From assembly GCA_030055615.1 (NCBI GenBank), contig JASFYN010000001.1, positions 79,267 through 143,266 on the forward strand: a DNA stretch of 64,000 nucleotides, given 5' to 3'. Of this stretch, positions 25,437 to 38,020 are shown piece after piece (position 1 is the stretch's first letter; each line of letters opens with the position of its first letter). Below the pieces are notes generated by a model. It was not told where the DNA came from. It searched no databases and saw nothing but the letters and a program-made list of their open reading frames with translations. The position numbers were made by a program, and so were the translations under genes. The DNA comes from Methanothermobacter sp. (GTDB taxonomy: Archaea; Methanobacteriota; Methanobacteria; Methanobacteriales; DSM-23052).

Positions 25437-26705
25437 TTGCAGAGGAAGGTTTTTCTTTTATTGTTACTGTTGACTTCCTTGGTTTCTGTGGGCGCTGTTT
25501 CAGCAACAAACAGCACATGTGAAGTAGGCCTGAAAATAACCTATGAATACCCCGATGATATAAACCCAACAATAGAAAAACTCACAGACTCCAATGGACA
25601 AGAAATAGAATTCCAAAAATACTTCGACCCAGCAGCAAACATCACCAAGATAACATTCCAACACCCACAACCAGAAAAAGGATTCAACATAACAATAAAA
25701 GCACCAGGATACCAAACAACAACAAAACAATTCACACCAACCAAAAACCCAACAAACCCACAAGACCCAAAATACTACACACACCTACAAATACAACTAA
25801 AAGCAACACAAACATACAAAATAGGAAGAGAAATAACTAAAAAAGCAAACCAAATCCTAAACTTCACAAAGACAGGAAAAGTACTAGTGATAACAACAGC
25901 AGGCAGCGCATACTACAAAAATAGTACATCAGAAGACGCACTTGAAGGTATACTCAACCAAGCACAAGGTATCATAAGTTATGGTAAAGGTAACCTACTA
26001 CTACTCAGAAAAACAAGGTTAGACCCCCTAGACTTTGCATTCATAACACGAAAAGGAAACGACCTAATCCTAGTATACTTCAAAAATGCCAGCCTAACAC
26101 CAACCTACATCGGAACAGTATCCCAGAACATGACAAAAGCACAATGGAATAACCTCACACAAAAACTTGGAAGTGATGCGTTCCCAATAGCGAGCCTAGC
26201 AAACGCATGGGCACTAGGATTACCAGCAGACATACTAAGAGAAGCAGCATTCCATGGCCACGTATGCCTAGGAACCATAAGCGGCTACGCCATGATAGAA
26301 ACACTACTCAAATACTATCCACCAAGCACAGGAACCGGAGGCGCAGAAGCCACTTCCTATATAGTCATAGGAGTTCCTGGAGGCTCAGATGATGATGTAT
26401 TCGTATATGCAATGGACTCAACCCCAGGAAAAAGAGCCTACATTGGATATAATACCACAGATGATGCAAATATGGTAGGGTTTATACGCTGGAACTCAAA
26501 CACAAGAACAGGAATACTCATTATAATGACCTACAATTGGACAGAACTAACAGAACAATTCAGAAGAGAAACAAAAGCAACAGTAGAAGAAGACACAGTC
26601 ACCGAGCTCAAATTCAACGCATGGGCAATCCAAAAACTTATAACAAGCCCAGAATCGCTAGTAAAAATACTCTACGCATTTGACAACAACAGAAGAACAA
26701 GTTAA
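25437..26705 (+). CDS. Secreted FmdE-domain protein, N-terminal part (frameshifted)
   Basis: Begins at TTG 25437, 8 nt after GGGAGGTG, with a signal peptide (QRKVFLLLLLLTSLVSVGAVSA). A beta-rich domain follows, then an FmdE-like domain containing AAFHGHVCLGTISGYAMIE, the putative zinc-binding His/Cys element. FmdE is a family first noted beside formylmethanofuran dehydrogenase, but this copy is exported. The frame ends at 26703-26705 with no membrane anchor. The next ORF overlaps by 26 nt in the +1 frame and supplies a second FmdE domain and an anchor. Removing one A near 26685 joins them as LYAFDTTEEQVNYLAGG, so I regard both as one gene of about 939 codons. Confidence 0.75.
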   Translation: MQRKVFLLLLLLTSLVSVGAVSATNSTCEVGLKITYEYPDDINPTIEKLTDSNGQEIEFQKYFDPAANITKITFQHPQPEKGFNITIKAPGYQTTTKQFTPTKNPTNPQDPKYYTHLQIQLKATQTYKIGREITKKANQILNFTKTGKVLVITTAGSAYYKNSTSEDALEGILNQAQGIISYGKGNLLLLRKTRLDPLDFAFITRKGNDLILVYFKNASLTPTYIGTVSQNMTKAQWNNLTQKLGSDAFPIASLANAWALGLPADILREAAFHGHVCLGTISGYAMIETLLKYYPPSTGTGGAEATSYIVIGVPGGSDDDVFVYAMDSTPGKRAYIGYNTTDDANMVGFIRWNSNTRTGILIIMTYNWTELTEQFRRETKATVEEDTVTELKFNAWAIQKLITSPESLVKILYAFDNNRRTS

Positions 26706-30934: not shown

Positions 30935-31195
30935 TTAGGATACTCCCGCCTCTCTCAAAGCATCCCTTAGGGTTTCTTTGCTTGGACAGACGCCAATTAT
31001 TCGAATATCTTCGTCTATGACCACTGCTGGGGTTGTTTTTATATCGTAAGCTTCTGTTTTTTCACTAGGACCTTTGTATATTTTAATGTTGATCTTGTCT
31101 CCATATTCTTTTTTTATTTCCTCTATGAGTTTTAGTAGTAAGCGACCTCCAGAACATGGCGGCTCTGATGTGAAAATTTCAACTTTCACACTCAT
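30935..31195 (-). CDS. Thioredoxin-like protein lacking the second active-site Cys
   Basis: 86 residues with a thioredoxin/glutaredoxin-like pattern: VEIFTSEPPCSGGRLLLKLIEEIK at the active-site position, a central KTTPAVVIDED with the cis-Pro, and IIGVCPSKETL near the end. The active site reads CSGG instead of CxxC, so the resolving Cys is missing; the later Cys in GVCPS is shared with its neighbour. Last of four genes on the minus strand, 3 nt after the second homologue. It may work as a monothiol carrier or metal-binding protein. Function inferred from fold. Confidence 0.75.
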   Translation of the reverse strand: MSVKVEIFTSEPPCSGGRLLLKLIEEIKKEYGDKINIKIYKGPSEKTEAYDIKTTPAVVIDEDIRIIGVCPSKETLRDALREAGVS

Positions 31196-31198
31196 ATT

Positions 31199-31453
31199 TT
31201 ACACTCCTAGTTCTTTTAGTATTGCGATCATTGTCTTTTTACTTGGGCAAACCCCCATTATTTTGATTAAACCTTCTTCAGCGACTATAGCTGGGACAAC
31301 GGTCAAATTGTATTTTTCATGAGCTTTTGATGGCCCGACATGCTTTATAACTTCCACTTCGGGGTGTTCTTTTTTGATTTTGTCCGCCAATTCTAATAGT
31401 TTCAAACAACCTGGGCATGGCGGCTCAGCAGTGAATATTTCAATTTTAACCAT
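31199..31453 (-). CDS. Thioredoxin-like protein with CPGC active site
   Basis: 84 residues, clear paralogue of the next gene downstream: VKIEIFTAEPPCPGCLKLLELADKIK gives a CxxC redox site, then LTVVPAIVAEE with the cis-Pro, and IMGVCPSKKTM. The shared TAEPPC and GVCPSK elements show a tandem duplication. Starts with ATG 31453, 16 nt after the CQKC homologue. The redox partner may be the permease gene at the head of the operon or its substrate. Confidence 0.8.
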   Translation of the reverse strand: MVKIEIFTAEPPCPGCLKLLELADKIKKEHPEVEVIKHVGPSKAHEKYNLTVVPAIVAEEGLIKIMGVCPSKKTMIAILKELGV

Positions 31454-31469
31454 GTATTCACCTCACATA

Positions 31470-31730
31470 CTATTTTTCTAATTTTCTTTTGATTATTTCC
31501 TCCATTTTTTCTTCTGAAAGAACTTTCCCCGTGGCGACTATGTTGTCATTCACTACTATAGTTGGCGTGACCATTATGCCATATTTGTCCCCCTCTTCGC
31601 TTAAAGCATCGAATCTTTCTATTTTAACGTTCTCGAATTTTTCAGCCATTTTCTCTGCTATTTTTTCAGCTAGTTTACACTTTTGACAAGGGGGTGTTGT
31701 CCCAAAAATTTTTATTACAACTTCTTTCAT
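31470..31730 (-). CDS. Thioredoxin-like protein with CQKC active site
   Basis: 86 residues resembling the small thioredoxin-like proteins of methanogens: EVVIKIFGTTPPCQKCKLAEKIAEKMAEKF, MVTPTIVVNDN with the cis-Pro, and GKVLSEEKMEEII. It lacks the GVCPSK Cys of the two downstream paralogues, so it is the more divergent member. 15 nt downstream of the permease, same strand. In other prokaryotes such small redox proteins often accompany permeases of this family. Confidence 0.83.
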   Translation of the reverse strand: MKEVVIKIFGTTPPCQKCKLAEKIAEKMAEKFENVKIERFDALSEEGDKYGIMVTPTIVVNDNIVATGKVLSEEKMEEIIKRKLEK

Positions 31731-31745
31731 TTTATTTCCTCCTTA

Positions 31746-32783
31746 TTAGAATATGTTCCCATAAGCGTATCCTACTAGCGCTGATATGATAACTACAAGT
31801 GTTATGTATATGATCGTTTTTTTGATGCCCATTATTCTTCCTATGACTATCATGTTAGGGAGGCTTAGGCTTGGACCTGCAAGTAAAAGTGTTAATGCTG
31901 GTCCATTGCCCATTCCTAGATTCATTAATGTTTTTATTATGGGGACTTCTGTGAGGGTTGCGAAGTACATTAGAGCGCCTATAACTGACGCTAGGAAGTT
32001 TGGTAAAATACCTTCACCGCCTAGGTAAGCTTCGACTATTTTCTGTGGTAATAGTGCTTGGAGTATGCCAGCTATAAAAACTCCTACCAAGAGCAGTGGA
32101 AATATCATCTTGAAAAATCCCCATGTTTCCTCTAACCATTCTTTTACGTCTTCTATTGTAAACCATTTTAAAAGGCAGAAGATTAACAAGACTATGAAGG
32201 CTAAAAGGGATATTGACTTAGTTAATAATGCGATTTTTGACGCTCCGACAACTAGAATCAATATGAGTAAAGAAAATACTGATAATTTAGGGAATAAATT
32301 ACTTTCTCCTTCTTCATTGACTGTTGTTGTCATTATATTTGCCCTCTTTTCCTCTTGGAATATTGTTGCCATGATAAAGCCGATTACAATGGACATTGAA
32401 ATAGCCCCTATGGCTCTTGCAACCCCCAAATCATAACCCAAAACAGCGGCTGTGTATACGATAGCCAGTATATTGACAGCAGGACCCGAATAAAGAAATG
32501 TTGTAGCAGGGCCTAGACCAGCCCCTCTACGGAGTATACCTGCAAATAATGGCAACACTGTACAAGAACATACTGCTAGTATCGACCCAGAAACCGATGC
32601 AACACCATAAGAGACTACCTTTTTGGCCTGTGGGCCTAAATATTTTAATACAGCATCCTTGGATAAGAATACGCTTATTGCACCTGCAATGAAGAAAGCT
32701 GGTACTAAACAGGTGAGAACATGTGCTGAAAGATATTCTCCAAGGGCATATAATCCTGATAATAGGATTTGTATTATGCTCAT
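31746..32783 (-). CDS. DUF318/ArsP-type permease
   Basis: A polytopic membrane protein of 345 residues with about eight to ten hydrophobic segments. It carries the family hallmark AVCSCTVLPLFAGILRRGAGLGPATTFLYSGPAVN and the duplicated second half (YFATLTEVPIIKTLMNLGMGNGPALTLLLAGPSLSLPN). Related permeases include organoarsenical exporter ArsP and uncharacterised two-domain permeases. I start at ATG 32783 after GGTGGTGGGTG. First gene of an operon with three thioredoxin-like proteins, which points to a thiol-reactive or metalloid substrate. That is inference. Confidence 0.85.
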   Translation of the reverse strand: MSIIQILLSGLYALGEYLSAHVLTCLVPAFFIAGAISVFLSKDAVLKYLGPQAKKVVSYGVASVSGSILAVCSCTVLPLFAGILRRGAGLGPATTFLYSGPAVNILAIVYTAAVLGYDLGVARAIGAISMSIVIGFIMATIFQEEKRANIMTTTVNEEGESNLFPKLSVFSLLILILVVGASKIALLTKSISLLAFIVLLIFCLLKWFTIEDVKEWLEETWGFFKMIFPLLLVGVFIAGILQALLPQKIVEAYLGGEGILPNFLASVIGALMYFATLTEVPIIKTLMNLGMGNGPALTLLLAGPSLSLPNMIVIGRIMGIKKTIIYITLVVIISALVGYAYGNIF

Positions 32784-32889
32784 CACCCACCACCCCTATA
32801 TCTATATATCCAAATCTTTTAATATATAATTTTTTGATCAAACTATATCATAAAACTCTGTGAAAAAATAGAATTTTATAGTGTATGTG

Positions 32890-32967
<78 letters not shown>

Positions 32968-33084
32968 TGAAAAATCAATTTTACGTTTTTATTTTTGTTT
33001 ATTATATTTATAAATTCTTCGATTTTTTAACTCAACAATCTATGGGGCCAGAAATTACAGAAAACTTTGTGTAAATACAAAGAA

Positions 33085-33093
33085 TTTAAATAT
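33085..33093 (+). promoter_or_regulatory. TATA-like box of the phosphatase gene, probably leaderless
   Basis: TTTAAATAT is centred about 25 nt before the ATG at 33114, the normal TATA-to-start-site distance in archaea. No ribosome-binding site precedes that ATG. Together these suggest a leaderless mRNA. Confidence 0.5.
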
Positions 33094-33113
33094 CAACAAA
33101 TTATATTAATATC

Positions 33114-33887
33114 ATGTTTAATAATGGAAAATTGGTTGAATTGCCTAAAAAAGGCAAAGCACTTGTTATTACAGATATCCATGGTAATATAGATGATTAT
33201 AACCAATTTATGCGTATATGGGAAGATTTCAGGGACGAAGAGAATCATTTGATCCAGACTGGTGATCTAATCCATGGAATGGGCCTTAAAAATGATAAAT
33301 CCATAGAAATATTGGATTCAGCGAAATATAAATTTGAAAATTCTAAAAATTTCCACCTCCTCCTGGGCAATCATGAATGGTCTCTCATATCTAAAACAAC
33401 AATTTATAAAGCTGGTATGAATCTGACTTTAAATTTTGAAACATTACTTAAACAAAGATTCGGAATTCAATGGAAAAAGAAATTGCAAGATTACATCAAA
33501 TTTTTTAAAAAGTTGCCAGTAGCTGTTAAAACTGGAAATAAAGTATTTATTAGCCATGCAGGGCCTTCAAATTATATAAAAGGGATTGATGATATAATCA
33601 ACATCACTGACGCAGGTTATTCAGAAAACAGGAAATTGTTTGAACTTTTATGGAATAGGTATGGTGATTATACAAAAGAGGATATAAACTCTTTTTTGGA
33701 AAATATTGGATGTAATGCTATTATAGTGGGACATACACCCGTTAGAGGGGTTGAATTGATAGGTAAAAGACAATTGATTTTATCGTCGAGTTACACCCGG
33801 GGTAAAAGAGCATATCTTAAACTAGACCTAGAAAAGGAGATCAAAAATGGAAAAGATCTTCTAAAAATGGTTGAATATCTGGACTAG
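33114..33887 (+). CDS. PPP-family Ser/Thr (or Tyr) protein phosphatase
   Basis: A 257-residue metallophosphatase. Metal and catalytic motifs appear in PPP order: ITDIHGNIDDY (Asp21, His23), QTGDLIHG, LLGNHEW, FISHAGPSNYI and VGHTPVRG. Similar to bacterial and archaeal PrpA/PP1-like enzymes that dephosphorylate proteins, though diadenosine tetraphosphatase-like activity cannot be excluded. Its stop is 7 nt from the stop of a convergent protein kinase gene, so the pair probably acts on the same substrates in opposite directions. Confidence 0.85.
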   Translation: MFNNGKLVELPKKGKALVITDIHGNIDDYNQFMRIWEDFRDEENHLIQTGDLIHGMGLKNDKSIEILDSAKYKFENSKNFHLLLGNHEWSLISKTTIYKAGMNLTLNFETLLKQRFGIQWKKKLQDYIKFFKKLPVAVKTGNKVFISHAGPSNYIKGIDDIINITDAGYSENRKLFELLWNRYGDYTKEDINSFLENIGCNAIIVGHTPVRGVELIGKRQLILSSSYTRGKRAYLKLDLEKEIKNGKDLLKMVEYLD

Positions 33888-33894
33888 TTAAAGA

Positions 33895-35202
33895 TTAGGG
33901 AGTTTTCATAGTCTTTGAATCTAAAGGCTCAGGTTTGTAGAATTTTTCAAGTTCCTCGATTAGTTCATCCATAGAGGAATACCTATCCTCCTTATTTTTA
34001 GAAAGGCATTTCATAATGATATCTTCAACCATACTTGCATCTGGATTAATCTCTGAAGGAGGTTTTGGCCGAATGTTAAGAATAGAACTATATAACTCTG
34101 ACATTTCACCCTTGAATGGTATCTCCCCTGTTACAAGTTCATAAAATACAACACCAAGCTGATAAATGTCTGTCCTCTCATCAGCTTTACCAAACTCTTG
34201 TGAAATTTGTTCAGGAGCCGCATATTGTGGCGTGGCCCCAGATAATGTTATAGATCCCTCTATTTTTAATTTACTTAAACCCCAGTCAGAAATCTTGTAA
34301 ATTCCCTCATGGCCTAATATATTGGATGTTTTCACATCCCCATGGATGATGTTTTTTCCATGTGCATATTGAAGCCCCTTTGCAACATCATGGACAATTG
34401 AAACCGCCTTTTTAAAAGGATATTTTAAATTGGCAACAGATTCTTCACAGAACTCCATTTCAATATATGGGATGGGCAGAATCTTAAAATCGTAAAGTTT
34501 CACGATGTTCGGATGATCCAAGTTGCTCCAATTGGAAACTTCTGATACGAAAATCTTCTCAGATCTCTTATCAAAAGACTTTGGTATTTTAATAGCTACT
34601 TCTTTCCCATCATCCTTACGTGTGGCTTTGAAGACTCTTCCAAATCCACCCTCCCCGATAAAAATTGGATCATCATAGTATGTATGAAGCTCGAATGGTA
34701 GTGATTTCATTGATAATCTTTTCAGTTGATCAAATTCCTTACCTTCTATTATAAGGTCTGGACCGTATCCTCTTATAATCCACAGATTAAGTAAAAAGGG
34801 AATAATTAGGAAAAAACTGCCTATTGTAAATATGAACATCATTGGGAATGAGAATAAATCCCCAAGAATCATTGTTAAACCAGCAAAAAACAAGAGTATG
34901 CTGATATTAAAATATGAGTGATTGGTTACAAGTCTTCTCCTGTGAATCATGTTATATAATATCATAGAATTGAAGAAGAAAAGTAAAATGCCAGTTACGA
35001 TTAAAGTATAGGCAAAATAAGGGTCATAAAATTCTGGCATTGAACTATCAAGCAAATATAAGTTTATAGGGATGAATAAAAGAATTGAAATAACCGCAAA
35101 AACGGCGTTTAAACTGATTAAACTGTTAAATTTCCAATTTTTAATCGTTTTTAAAATTTGTGACATTTCTGCTTTCTTGTCACTTTTTATTTTAAATATC
35201 AA
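33895..35202 (-). CDS. Transmembrane eukaryotic-type Ser/Thr protein kinase
   Basis: A 435-residue protein with four membrane segments in the first 150 residues, followed by a cytoplasmic kinase domain. Kinase elements: Gly loop IGEGGFGRVFKA (near residue 185), VAIKIPK with the ATP-binding Lys, catalytic loop IIHGDVKTSNIL (HGD instead of HRD), metal loop SDWGLSKL (DWG instead of DFG), activation segment ending QYAAPEQ, and DIYQLGVVFYELVTGEIPF. The catalytic residues Lys, Asp, Asn and Asp are retained, so it is probably active. The N-terminal membrane domain, rather than a usual C-terminal sensor, may sense the envelope. TTG 35202 overlaps the upstream gene by 4 nt. Confidence 0.88.
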   Translation of the reverse strand: MIFKIKSDKKAEMSQILKTIKNWKFNSLISLNAVFAVISILLFIPINLYLLDSSMPEFYDPYFAYTLIVTGILLFFFNSMILYNMIHRRRLVTNHSYFNISILLFFAGLTMILGDLFSFPMMFIFTIGSFFLIIPFLLNLWIIRGYGPDLIIEGKEFDQLKRLSMKSLPFELHTYYDDPIFIGEGGFGRVFKATRKDDGKEVAIKIPKSFDKRSEKIFVSEVSNWSNLDHPNIVKLYDFKILPIPYIEMEFCEESVANLKYPFKKAVSIVHDVAKGLQYAHGKNIIHGDVKTSNILGHEGIYKISDWGLSKLKIEGSITLSGATPQYAAPEQISQEFGKADERTDIYQLGVVFYELVTGEIPFKGEMSELYSSILNIRPKPPSEINPDASMVEDIIMKCLSKNKEDRYSSMDELIEELEKFYKPEPLDSKTMKTP

Positions 35203-36146
35203 ACCAGCACATAAAAAAAGGTGAAAGCAACCATTGTAAGGATTCTATAACTCAAATCTCCCAGGGTAGGGGAGATTAAACCCGCGGCCTTGTAGTTAGG
35301 GGGGATGGGATGATCAGCAAGCCAGTTAACAGAATTAAGGCCTAGTTTCCACGCGTTACCTTTGTAGAGCCAAGCATTAACGAATGTCTGCGCAGAACCT
35401 ATAACTATTATCCTGCCTCTCCCATAATCCATGGCAGATATAAGTGGAAGAGGCCCTGTTACTTCATCAGCTTCTTTTATTTCATTGTTCGCTGACTCTC
35501 CTTCACTAGTTACATATCCATGATCAGACCAAGAATCGGAATCAGAATAAACTAAAACTTCAGCCGCTCCAGGATCTTGATAAGCCCCTGTAATATAATA
35601 GATCTCAGATGTATTTGATGTTATGGGATGTGATTTGATATTATCAGTTTTTATGAGTCTAGAAATACCTACATTATGTTTTGTGTCTATGATTATCTCG
35701 TTGAATGCAAAATCTAAACCAAAGCTTCTTGCGATTTTGTTGAATGCATAATTCTTATCACCATCTTGGGGCCCCCAAGGTTCACCCACGAGGAGTAAGC
35801 CCCCACCGTTATTTACAAATTTTTTGATATCATTTATTTCTTGGTCGGTATAATTACGTCCAGGGGCCATTAAAATCAAAACATCGTAGTTTTTAAGTTT
35901 TTCATAAGTTAAGGGCGCGTCGGTTAATCTGGAGACACTAGCTCCATTATATTCCAATAAAGTAGCGAAACTTGATGCACCATATGGTCCAAGGTTATAT
36001 ATGGTATAATATTTCCCATATGGTCCTGTTTCATCAAAAAGGACCTTGGGACCATCCTGGGCCGCGAAAATGTTTGGAATGACAATTATGGGCATGATTA
36101 GAGAAAGGAAAATTATCAATTTAATATTATTTGATGGTATATTCAC
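35199..36146 (-). CDS. Extracytoplasmic glutamine-amidotransferase-fold protein (DUF4350-like)
   Basis: 315 residues beginning at GTG 36146 with a signal or anchor segment (IKLIIFLSLIMPIIVIPNIFAAQ). The body is a class I glutamine-amidotransferase-like fold: KVLFDETGPYGKYYTIYNLGPYGASSFATLLEYNG, YDVLILMAPGRNYTDQEINDIKKFVNNGGGLLLVGEP, and a terminal RGRIIVIGSAQTF. No nucleophile Cys is visible, so it is likely a binding or structural domain. One membrane helix closes the protein (YRILTMVAFTFFYVLV). It is coupled to the kinase gene by a 4-nt overlap and probably acts as its sensor or partner outside the membrane. Confidence 0.7.
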   Translation of the reverse strand: MNIPSNNIKLIIFLSLIMPIIVIPNIFAAQDGPKVLFDETGPYGKYYTIYNLGPYGASSFATLLEYNGASVSRLTDAPLTYEKLKNYDVLILMAPGRNYTDQEINDIKKFVNNGGGLLLVGEPWGPQDGDKNYAFNKIARSFGLDFAFNEIIIDTKHNVGISRLIKTDNIKSHPITSNTSEIYYITGAYQDPGAAEVLVYSDSDSWSDHGYVTSEGESANNEIKEADEVTGPLPLISAMDYGRGRIIVIGSAQTFVNAWLYKGNAWKLGLNSVNWLADHPIPPNYKAAGLISPTLGDLSYRILTMVAFTFFYVLV

Positions 36147-36160
36147 GTGATCAACTTCTA

Positions 36161-36578
36161 TTATTCTAAATATTTGATGGGTAATGTTTTCGCCACCAAT
36201 ATTTCGTCCTGATTCTCCAATTTTATTTTTCCTAAACCTTTTATTTCATTTCCGTTTATTTTAGTCCCATTTTTTGTGTCTAAGTCTTCGATGTAGCATC
36301 CGTCATCCATTTTAGTAATTGAAATGTTCTTTCCCGATAAATAATAGGTTATCGGGTAGGAGAACGCCTAAGAAATCTTCCCTCCCAAAAGTCCTTTCAT
36401 AATCCTCTATTAGGATTTGTCGATCTCTTGGTAGAACGAGATTTGCAAACGATTTTTTTGGTTTATTGACTATTGTAGTCTTTTTTATTTTAGATCTTTG
36501 TGAAAATTTGACATAAAGGCTTCTTATAGCTATTCCTGTGATTATGGTTATTAAAGCCACCGCAAAAATATCAAACAT
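36161..36578 (-). pseudogene. Membrane-anchored FHA-domain protein interrupted by a frameshift
   Basis: From ATG 36578 (behind GAGGT) a membrane segment (FAVALITIITGIAIRSLYV) is followed by a basic linker and the first part of a forkhead-associated domain: YERTFGREDF and FIGKEHFNY, then a stop near 36312. In the shifted frame directly after, the FHA fold resumes as ITKMDDGCYIED, LDTKNGTKINGNEIKG and KIKLENQDEILVAKTLPIKYLE, ending at 36161. Adding two bases, or removing one, near 36320 restores a domain of about 139 residues. FHA domains bind phosphothreonine, so it was presumably a target or scaffold of the adjacent kinase. A sequencing error is the alternative. Confidence 0.75.
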
Positions 36579-36594
36579 TCAGATAAACCTCATA

Positions 36595-37386
36595 TTATCT
36601 TTTGCCGACATATATCCCATATCCCATGTAATCAAAGAAATTATCAGGCATTTGCCATGTTCCTATCATAATTTTTAGTATGTGTTTTCTGTAGGATGAT
36701 TCTTCAAAATATAAGGCTATAAGTCTGTGCCAAGCCTTGTAGATATTCTCAGATTCGTTATCATGGTTTAAATAATTGAAAGGATGGACTTCAGTCTTGA
36801 TATTTCTTAATCCAGAATCTTTAAGCAACTTTTTCCAACTATTCGGGCTTTCTGGGATTGTCCCATTGGCACTGTGGATCAAATATCTAACCAAAGATCT
36901 TGGAGGGTTTTCTTTGACCCAGGTCACTTCGTTAAGCCCCACATATCCACCTGGTTTGATTACATCTACATATTCCCTTAGTGCTTTTCTTTTATCTTCT
37001 ATAAATGCTGTTACTGATTCACTTATAATGGAGTCGAAGTGATTTCTTGGAAACGGCATTTTCTGGGCGTCTGCAATAATAAAACTAACTAAATGTTCGA
37101 TTTTATTCCTTTTTGCCCTCTCGTTGGCCTTTTTGATCATCCTCTCATTTTTGTCCACGCCATGAACCTTACATCCTATTGTTTTTGCAAGGTAGCATAC
37201 AGTTTTTCCCACACCACAGCCAACATCCAAAACAGATGAAGCACTAGTTATATGACATAAGTCAATAAGCCTTTTGGTTGATTCTAGACCACCAGGGTGC
37301 TGAGTTAAATCAATCTTGGCTTGTAAATCAAAATAAAGGTCATCAAGTTCTTTATTTGTTAAAAATTCCTTTTTATCAAAACGAAT
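36595..37386 (-). CDS. Class I SAM-dependent methyltransferase with anomalous 5' end
   Basis: SAM-binding motif I is SVLDVGCGVGKTVCYLA, followed by GVDKNERMIKKANE, IADAQKMPFPRNHFDSIISESV and KPGGYVGLNEV, close to methyltransferase type 11. The first standard start (TTG 37230) falls inside motif I and cannot be right. The frame stays open and protein-like upstream (RFDKKEFLTNKELDDLYF, HPGGLESTKRLIDLCHI) until a TAG at 37399-37401. AGGAGAGG follows that TAG and points to ATT 37386 as a non-standard start. Alternatively the gene starts at ATG 37443, 1 nt after the upstream stop, and is interrupted by the amber codon. Substrate unknown; 16 nt before the FHA gene. Confidence 0.65.
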   Translation of the reverse strand: MRFDKKEFLTNKELDDLYFDLQAKIDLTQHPGGLESTKRLIDLCHITSASSVLDVGCGVGKTVCYLAKTIGCKVHGVDKNERMIKKANERAKRNKIEHLVSFIIADAQKMPFPRNHFDSIISESVTAFIEDKRKALREYVDVIKPGGYVGLNEVTWVKENPPRSLVRYLIHSANGTIPESPNSWKKLLKDSGLRNIKTEVHPFNYLNHDNESENIYKAWHRLIALYFEESSYRKHILKIMIGTWQMPDNFFDYMGYGIYVGKR

Positions 37387-37444
37387 TGTAATCCTCTCCT
37401 AAGACAAGTGATCTATAAAATTTCTCCAAGGTATTTTGCACATA

Positions 37445-37843
37445 TCATATCTCGTAAATCTCTAAGTCTTTAATTTTTGCTAAAAACTCCTCTTTAGAAA
37501 TCTCTCCTTTAACGAATTGCTTTCTAATTCTGTCACATTCTGAAATAGATCTCATTTGTCCATTATATATCTCTATTTCATATTTGAGCTCTTCTTCGGG
37601 CGGTAAACTAGATTGTCCCCAATATTTCATATCCCACAGATGGGATTCTAGACGTCTTTCTGCTTCTAATCTCTCTTTTTCGGTTTCATCTTCTATCCTT
37701 GCTATTAATTCATCCGTTGGCACGCCCGATTCAACATCATTAATTAATTTTTGATCAAAATCTGAATTGAAATTTAGGATAAATAAAATGATCAAAAAGA
37801 AACCCATTCCCCCAATAATTCCAATCCAATTTTCTTTTTTCAA
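37445..37843 (-). CDS. Small membrane-anchored coiled-coil protein, unknown function
   Basis: 132 residues: an N-terminal membrane segment (WIGIIGGMGFFLIILFILNF), then an acidic, strongly helical cytoplasmic or external region (VPTDELIARIEDETEKERLEAERRLESHLWDM) and a C-terminal pattern FVKGEISKEEFLAKIKDLE. That last pattern resembles the short SHOCT-like helical motif found at the ends of many membrane proteins. First gene of the run ending with the kinase. No family recognised with confidence. Confidence 0.65.
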   Translation of the reverse strand: MKKENWIGIIGGMGFFLIILFILNFNSDFDQKLINDVESGVPTDELIARIEDETEKERLEAERRLESHLWDMKYWGQSSLPPEEELKYEIEIYNGQMRSISECDRIRKQFVKGEISKEEFLAKIKDLEIYEI

Positions 37844-38020
37844 AAAATATAAAACCTCCCAATTTAAAGAAATTTGTTCTATTTTTTATAAAAAGTTTTA
37901 TATAAAATTAATCATTAAAAATTGCGTGATTAGAACTAAGCATCCACATAGTGTACTTTATAGCCCAACTTTAACTTAGATTTATAAACGGGAACATAAG
38001 AGGATATAAAGGTGATTAAA

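Follow-up and report, generated by a model that had tools for sequence, protein, structure and literature searches.

The Arn network of Sulfolobus comprises the FHA protein ArnA, ArnB, the kinases ArnC and ArnD, and PP2A (PMC10470591 and references therein). FHA domains contact phosphothreonine (pThr) through conserved Arg, Ser, and Asn residues (PMC10470591). In PPP-family phosphatases, R96 and R221 are nearly universal, and R96 of the GDxVDRG motif is part of a two-Arg clamp (PMC10214084). The locus described here lies in a 64,000-nucleotide stretch of a Methanothermobacter genome (the window) and shares the kinase-FHA-PPP logic known in archaea, a likeness to the Arn network drawn from shared domains only (PMC10470591). 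However, no DUF4350 receptor kinase is described in that network. Bacterial PASTA kinases (PknB/Stk1) with FHA proteins are also similar, and their model NF033483 is the best curated match of the window kinase (1.8e-52). This match covers the kinase domain only and scores 179 bits against a model cut-off of 450, whereas the window encodes a multi-helix region and a DUF4350 ectodomain. A literature search of incomplete coverage returned no description of a DUF4350-kinase fusion. To our knowledge, archaeal receptor-type Ser/Thr kinases have received little functional description.

The locus is best explained as a Ser/Thr phospho-signalling module that was acquired horizontally and is probably in decay; in its intact form, seen in UBA587, a Methanobacteriaceae metagenome-assembled genome (G151), it most likely works as a receptor-kinase/FHA/PPP pathway (probability of this whole reading about 0.6). 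In the window, an intact PPP-type (PP1-like) metallophosphatase gene (33114-33887, plus strand; Pfam Metallophos, 7.8e-18) converges, across 7 nt, on a run of minus-strand genes. The sequence-only reading had described this order, the strands, and the convergence, and the ORF listing and Pfam matches agree with it. The gene run is real, and the gene models in the window need correcting.

The principal correction concerns the receptor. What had been taken for a separate exported amidotransferase-fold protein and a transmembrane kinase are the two halves of one frame-split gene. The 5′ half (35199-36146, minus strand) encodes an N-terminal hydrophobic helix and a DUF4350 (GATase/GIFT-like) ectodomain (1.5e-15), and ends in a truncated helix. 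The 3′ half (33895-35202, minus strand) encodes four membrane helices and a cytoplasmic Ser/Thr kinase domain (Pkinase, 3e-43). The frame changes at a T7 run (35213-35219, minus strand) inside the juxtamembrane helix, and the two ORFs meet in a 4-nt overlap just past it. This overlap had been noted before, but it sits at the frame break of a single gene. When joined across the T7 run, the ORFs are 59% identical to the UBA587 receptor over its full length, including the juxtamembrane helix. Because this fused 797-residue homologue aligns end to end with the joined ORFs, sensor and kinase are parts of one receptor, which is a single polypeptide in UBA587 and split in the window. Thus, a reading of raw sequence can make two partners out of one interrupted gene.

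Hydropathy gives a receptor layout of a signal/anchor helix, the ectodomain, one juxtamembrane helix, four more helices, and the kinase. The kinase domain is probably cytoplasmic, with which the positively charged loops agree. It has the features of Hanks-type Ser/Thr protein kinases (Gly loop, VAIK Lys, catalytic Asp/Asn, and DFG-like Asp), and the catalytic K, D, N, and D are retained in the window (GEGGFGRV, VAIK, HGDVKTSN, and DWG). The Arg of the HRD motif is Gly (HGD), which makes it a non-RD kinase. In searches, the ectodomain hits both DUF4350 and the GIFT domain of IFT52. The DUF4350 protein of the window contains no Cys, and the UBA587 counterpart has Cys only in its signal helix. 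Class I glutamine amidotransferase (GATase) activity is rejected because the catalytic Cys is absent, and the ectodomain is instead taken as a sensor or binding domain. An AlphaFold2 model of the ectodomain from two sequences reached a mean pLDDT of 47.6, a quality insufficient for searching by fold.

No intact membrane FHA gene, as had been proposed, is present in the window. The FHA gene (about 36161-36578, minus strand) is frameshifted near 36324. Its 5′ part (36312-36578) is an 88-residue ORF that encodes one membrane helix and the start of the FHA domain, lacks the first helix of its relatives, and has no Pfam match of its own. The FHA core lies in a different frame in the 3′ part (36161-36334), with the family match at 36197-36325. 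With a profile built from three FHA sequences, the window gene is found only in two fragments, each in its own frame. The frameshifted core still scores over the cut-off for the FHA fold (5.5e-7), and the intact UBA587 protein also matches. With both reader and receptor frameshifted, the earlier description of a complete write-read-erase module does not hold for the window genome.

The intact form was found in a DUF4350 search of 152 Methanobacteriota genomes, in which this receptor type occurs in two, the window genome and UBA587. In UBA587 (DATN01000012.1; L013/L020), the receptor is an open frame of 797 residues with a signal/anchor helix, a DUF4350 ectodomain, about five more helices, and a cytoplasmic kinase. 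An intact two-helix membrane FHA gene lies upstream, and a converging PPP-type phosphatase (61% identical to that of the window) and a small membrane protein (52%) lie downstream. Overall, the shared proteins are 52-61% identical between the two loci. The UBA587 locus differs in that its receptor and FHA genes are intact and no methyltransferase is present. Relative to the PPP gene, the small protein is encoded on the opposite side, and another FHA paralogue is found about 4 kb away. At L013 5401-7068, this second membrane FHA gene precedes one for a pentapeptide-repeat protein whose C-terminal part contains membrane helices and which is a possible alternative partner. Since UBA587 holds the same combination of FHA protein, receptor kinase, converging PPP, and small protein, their clustering is not due to chance. 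The proposal that kinase, FHA, PPP, and extracytoplasmic domain form one conserved module is supported by this recurrence in a distant relative, in which the sensor is covalently fused to the kinase. The sequence-only reading had named non-co-occurrence in relatives as grounds for refutation, and on this point the outcome is mixed: the set is absent from congeners, present in one other genus, and reduced to FHA and PPP without a receptor in a third. That the whole intact module is seen in one relative only counts against the main reading.

In the intact form, the DUF4350 domain on the extracellular side would bind an envelope or environmental cue, and the signal would pass through about five membrane helices to the cytoplasmic Hanks-type kinase. 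As in its family, the kinase would phosphorylate itself and partners. The membrane-anchored FHA protein encoded just upstream could then dock on the phosphorylated receptor or target, and the convergently encoded PPP-family phosphatase would reset the system, with the small membrane protein as a putative accessory. With a split receptor and an interrupted FHA gene, the pathway probably does not work as a unit in the window genome. The corrected anatomy, a sensor-kinase fusion with FHA upstream and PPP converging, nevertheless outlines a compact, testable archaeal envelope-signalling unit. The main interest lies in the intact UBA587 copy, the best object for its study.

Two steps of this pathway may differ from the textbook. 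In the membrane FHA proteins, the pThr-contacting Arg (GR) and Asn (NGT) are present, but in 4 of 4 the SxxH motif has Gly for Ser. Given Gly in place of this phosphate-contacting Ser, the read step may be altered. By comparison, the phosphate-binding Ser is mostly kept in the HTH-FHA proteins of other methanogens. The erase step may also differ, as the PPP family here lacks the DR of GDxxDRG. The window enzyme, whose best PDB matches are PP1-type phosphatases, retains the metal-binding motifs GDxHG, GDxx, GNHE, H of HGG, and GH (as TDIHGN, GDLIH, GNHEW, SHAGP, and VGHTP), with T for G in the first. However, the motif GDxVDRG reads GDLIHGM or GDFIHAM-type, with GD(L/F)IH in all nine aligned PPPs. 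Because the clamp Arg is missing, the substrate class of the phosphatase is uncertain. The window PPP is 74% identical to that of the Methanobacteriaceae genome G038, 61% to that of UBA587, and 50% to a genus-wide paralogue found elsewhere in all congeners. With 97/98 support, the module PPPs (window, UBA587, and G038) group as a clade apart from this paralogue. The paralogue (L077, 7569-8351) adjoins a radical-SAM-like gene, as it does in congener G001 and in G060, a same-class genome of 1,243,342 bp; no kinase or FHA gene lies near it in these three loci.

Other methanogens encode related clusters, whose domain names, like those of the Thermoplasmatota contig below, were assigned by eye except where searched. 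In Methanolinea (L021, 7857-10891; L022; L023), an HTH-FHA gene lies directly upstream of a transmembrane kinase gene that likewise encodes an extracytoplasmic part, several helices, and a cytoplasmic kinase domain, the last about 43-46% identical to that of the window. However, the ectodomain appears PEGA-like by eye, the HTH-FHA protein has the phosphate-binding Ser, and no adjacent PPP was seen. Other Methanobacteriales loci (L073, L074, and L081) encode FHA and kinase in the same order, with a PPP nearby in L073 and L074. These kinases differ in carrying an N-terminal kinase domain within a large cytosolic protein (787-1184 residues) without a DUF4350 ectodomain; their FHA domain is fused to a helix-turn-helix-type region, and their PPP is 42-46% identical. 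FHA, PP2C, and kinase also occur together in a Thermoplasmatota contig. The earlier phrase “rare for a methanogen” thus fits the receptor type (2/152) but not the theme, given the FHA-kinase clusters in other Methanobacteriales and in Methanolinea. Because such clusters occur in other methanogens, the locus appears to be a variant of archaeal FHA-kinase-phosphatase signalling and not a new kind, distinguished on present comparisons by its DUF4350 receptor and membrane FHA. The window kinase also matches the PADLOC models mad6 and PD-T4-6, but through the shared kinase domain, and a defence system was rejected.

The block of about 4.95 kb (33026-37978) is inserted between tRNA-Arg(TCG) (32891-32967, minus strand) and hisF. 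In congeners G001 and G002, the sequence is collinear with both flanks of the block, which is itself missing: matches to G001 stop at 33025 and restart at 37979, and about 175 nt stand there instead. A third congener, G003, likewise lacks the DUF4350 protein. The GC content of the block is about 31-37%, versus about 35-44% in flanking windows. The PPP and FHA of the window are both nearest to those of G038, where the two genes converge without a receptor. With no copy in the congeners, and with a PPP and an FHA protein whose nearest relatives belong to another member of the Methanobacteriaceae, the block is most simply read as a horizontal acquisition from a Methanobacteriaceae-like source; loss in the congeners is a possible alternative. 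A mobile-element origin was rejected, as the DUF4350 protein had no match on plasmids or phages, and kinase, FHA, and DUF4350 proteins had none in viral contigs. Classical tRNA integration is also unsupported, because tRNA-Arg has its 5′ side, and not the 3′ end, towards the block. Beyond this tRNA, at 30935-32786, the window encodes a permease and three thioredoxin-like small proteins in tandem, where G001 has a different permease (ACR3-like by eye); the region is thus variable on both sides of the tRNA.

Decay has to be weighed against misreading of the sequence. As a control, 264 proteins of G001 were compared with their orthologues in the window and in 400 kb of contig 2. Frameshifts affect 2 of 4-5 module genes versus 4 of 264 control orthologues (binomial 0.001-0.002), a small-number argument made after the lesions had been seen, with 19 further alignments containing an in-frame stop in which real and spurious cases are unsorted. 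This enrichment makes decay more likely than random sequencing error. However, the frames beyond both module breaks are still open and the kinase motifs are retained, which counts against decay; the lesions would be very recent if real, or else sequence errors or reversible. As a less likely reading, the frameshifts are sequencing or assembly errors, and the module of this strain is as intact as that of UBA587. One break falls in a homopolymer, a typical site of sequencing error, and other frameshifts occur in the same assembly. Enrichment at the module speaks against this reading, as do an FHA break outside any homopolymer, an FHA protein without its first helix, and a methyltransferase without a canonical start. 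The only other frameshift in the window is a 2-nt deletion relative to both congeners (26687-26689), which splits the gene for a large surface-type protein (941 residues in G001) into two frames.

Alternatively, as the sequence-only reading implied, the split could be real and both halves could work, with an exported DUF4350 sensor tethered to the membrane, a separate four-helix kinase, and stop-start translational coupling across the TTGA overlap. The TTG start within this overlap and the hydrophobic helices kept in each half are consistent with such coupling. It is nevertheless unlikely, as no Shine-Dalgarno-like sequence is visible before the TTG in the window, the close homologue is fused, and the FHA partner is also broken. 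A broader proposal, a distinct archaeal phospho-signalling class, would draw on the DUF4350 receptor kinase, the Ser-less membrane FHA, and the DR-less PPP, with altered chemistry or a different phospho-mark and the receptor homopolymer as an on/off switch; we consider it quite improbable. Slippage of replication or of RNA polymerase at the T7 run, as a contingency site, could restore the receptor fusion in some cells or transcripts. The tract lies precisely where the frame changes, and the frames flanking it are open, but this reading is hardly credible: the tract is short, has no counterpart at the UBA587 junction, and would leave the FHA break unexplained. Decay of an acquired module is the preferred reading.

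The two remaining genes of the run relate differently to the module. The SAM methyltransferase ORF (36595-37392, minus strand; Methyltransf_11, 2.4e-24) lies outside the conserved core. The earliest canonical start codon, TTG at 37230, lies within motif I, and the frame is open to about 37392 without ATG, GTG, or TTG; a homologue has the missing N-terminus. The nearest homologue in the phylum (39%) is in G038, on a different contig from the FHA and PPP genes of that genome. The UBA587 module has no methyltransferase, and this gene is not conserved with the module. A role in defence was rejected, the mad2 match being generic. In contrast to the methyltransferase, the small membrane protein (37445-37843, minus strand), with a single helix and a weak SHOCT-like C-terminus, is shared with UBA587 and, within the phylum set, is found only in these two genomes.
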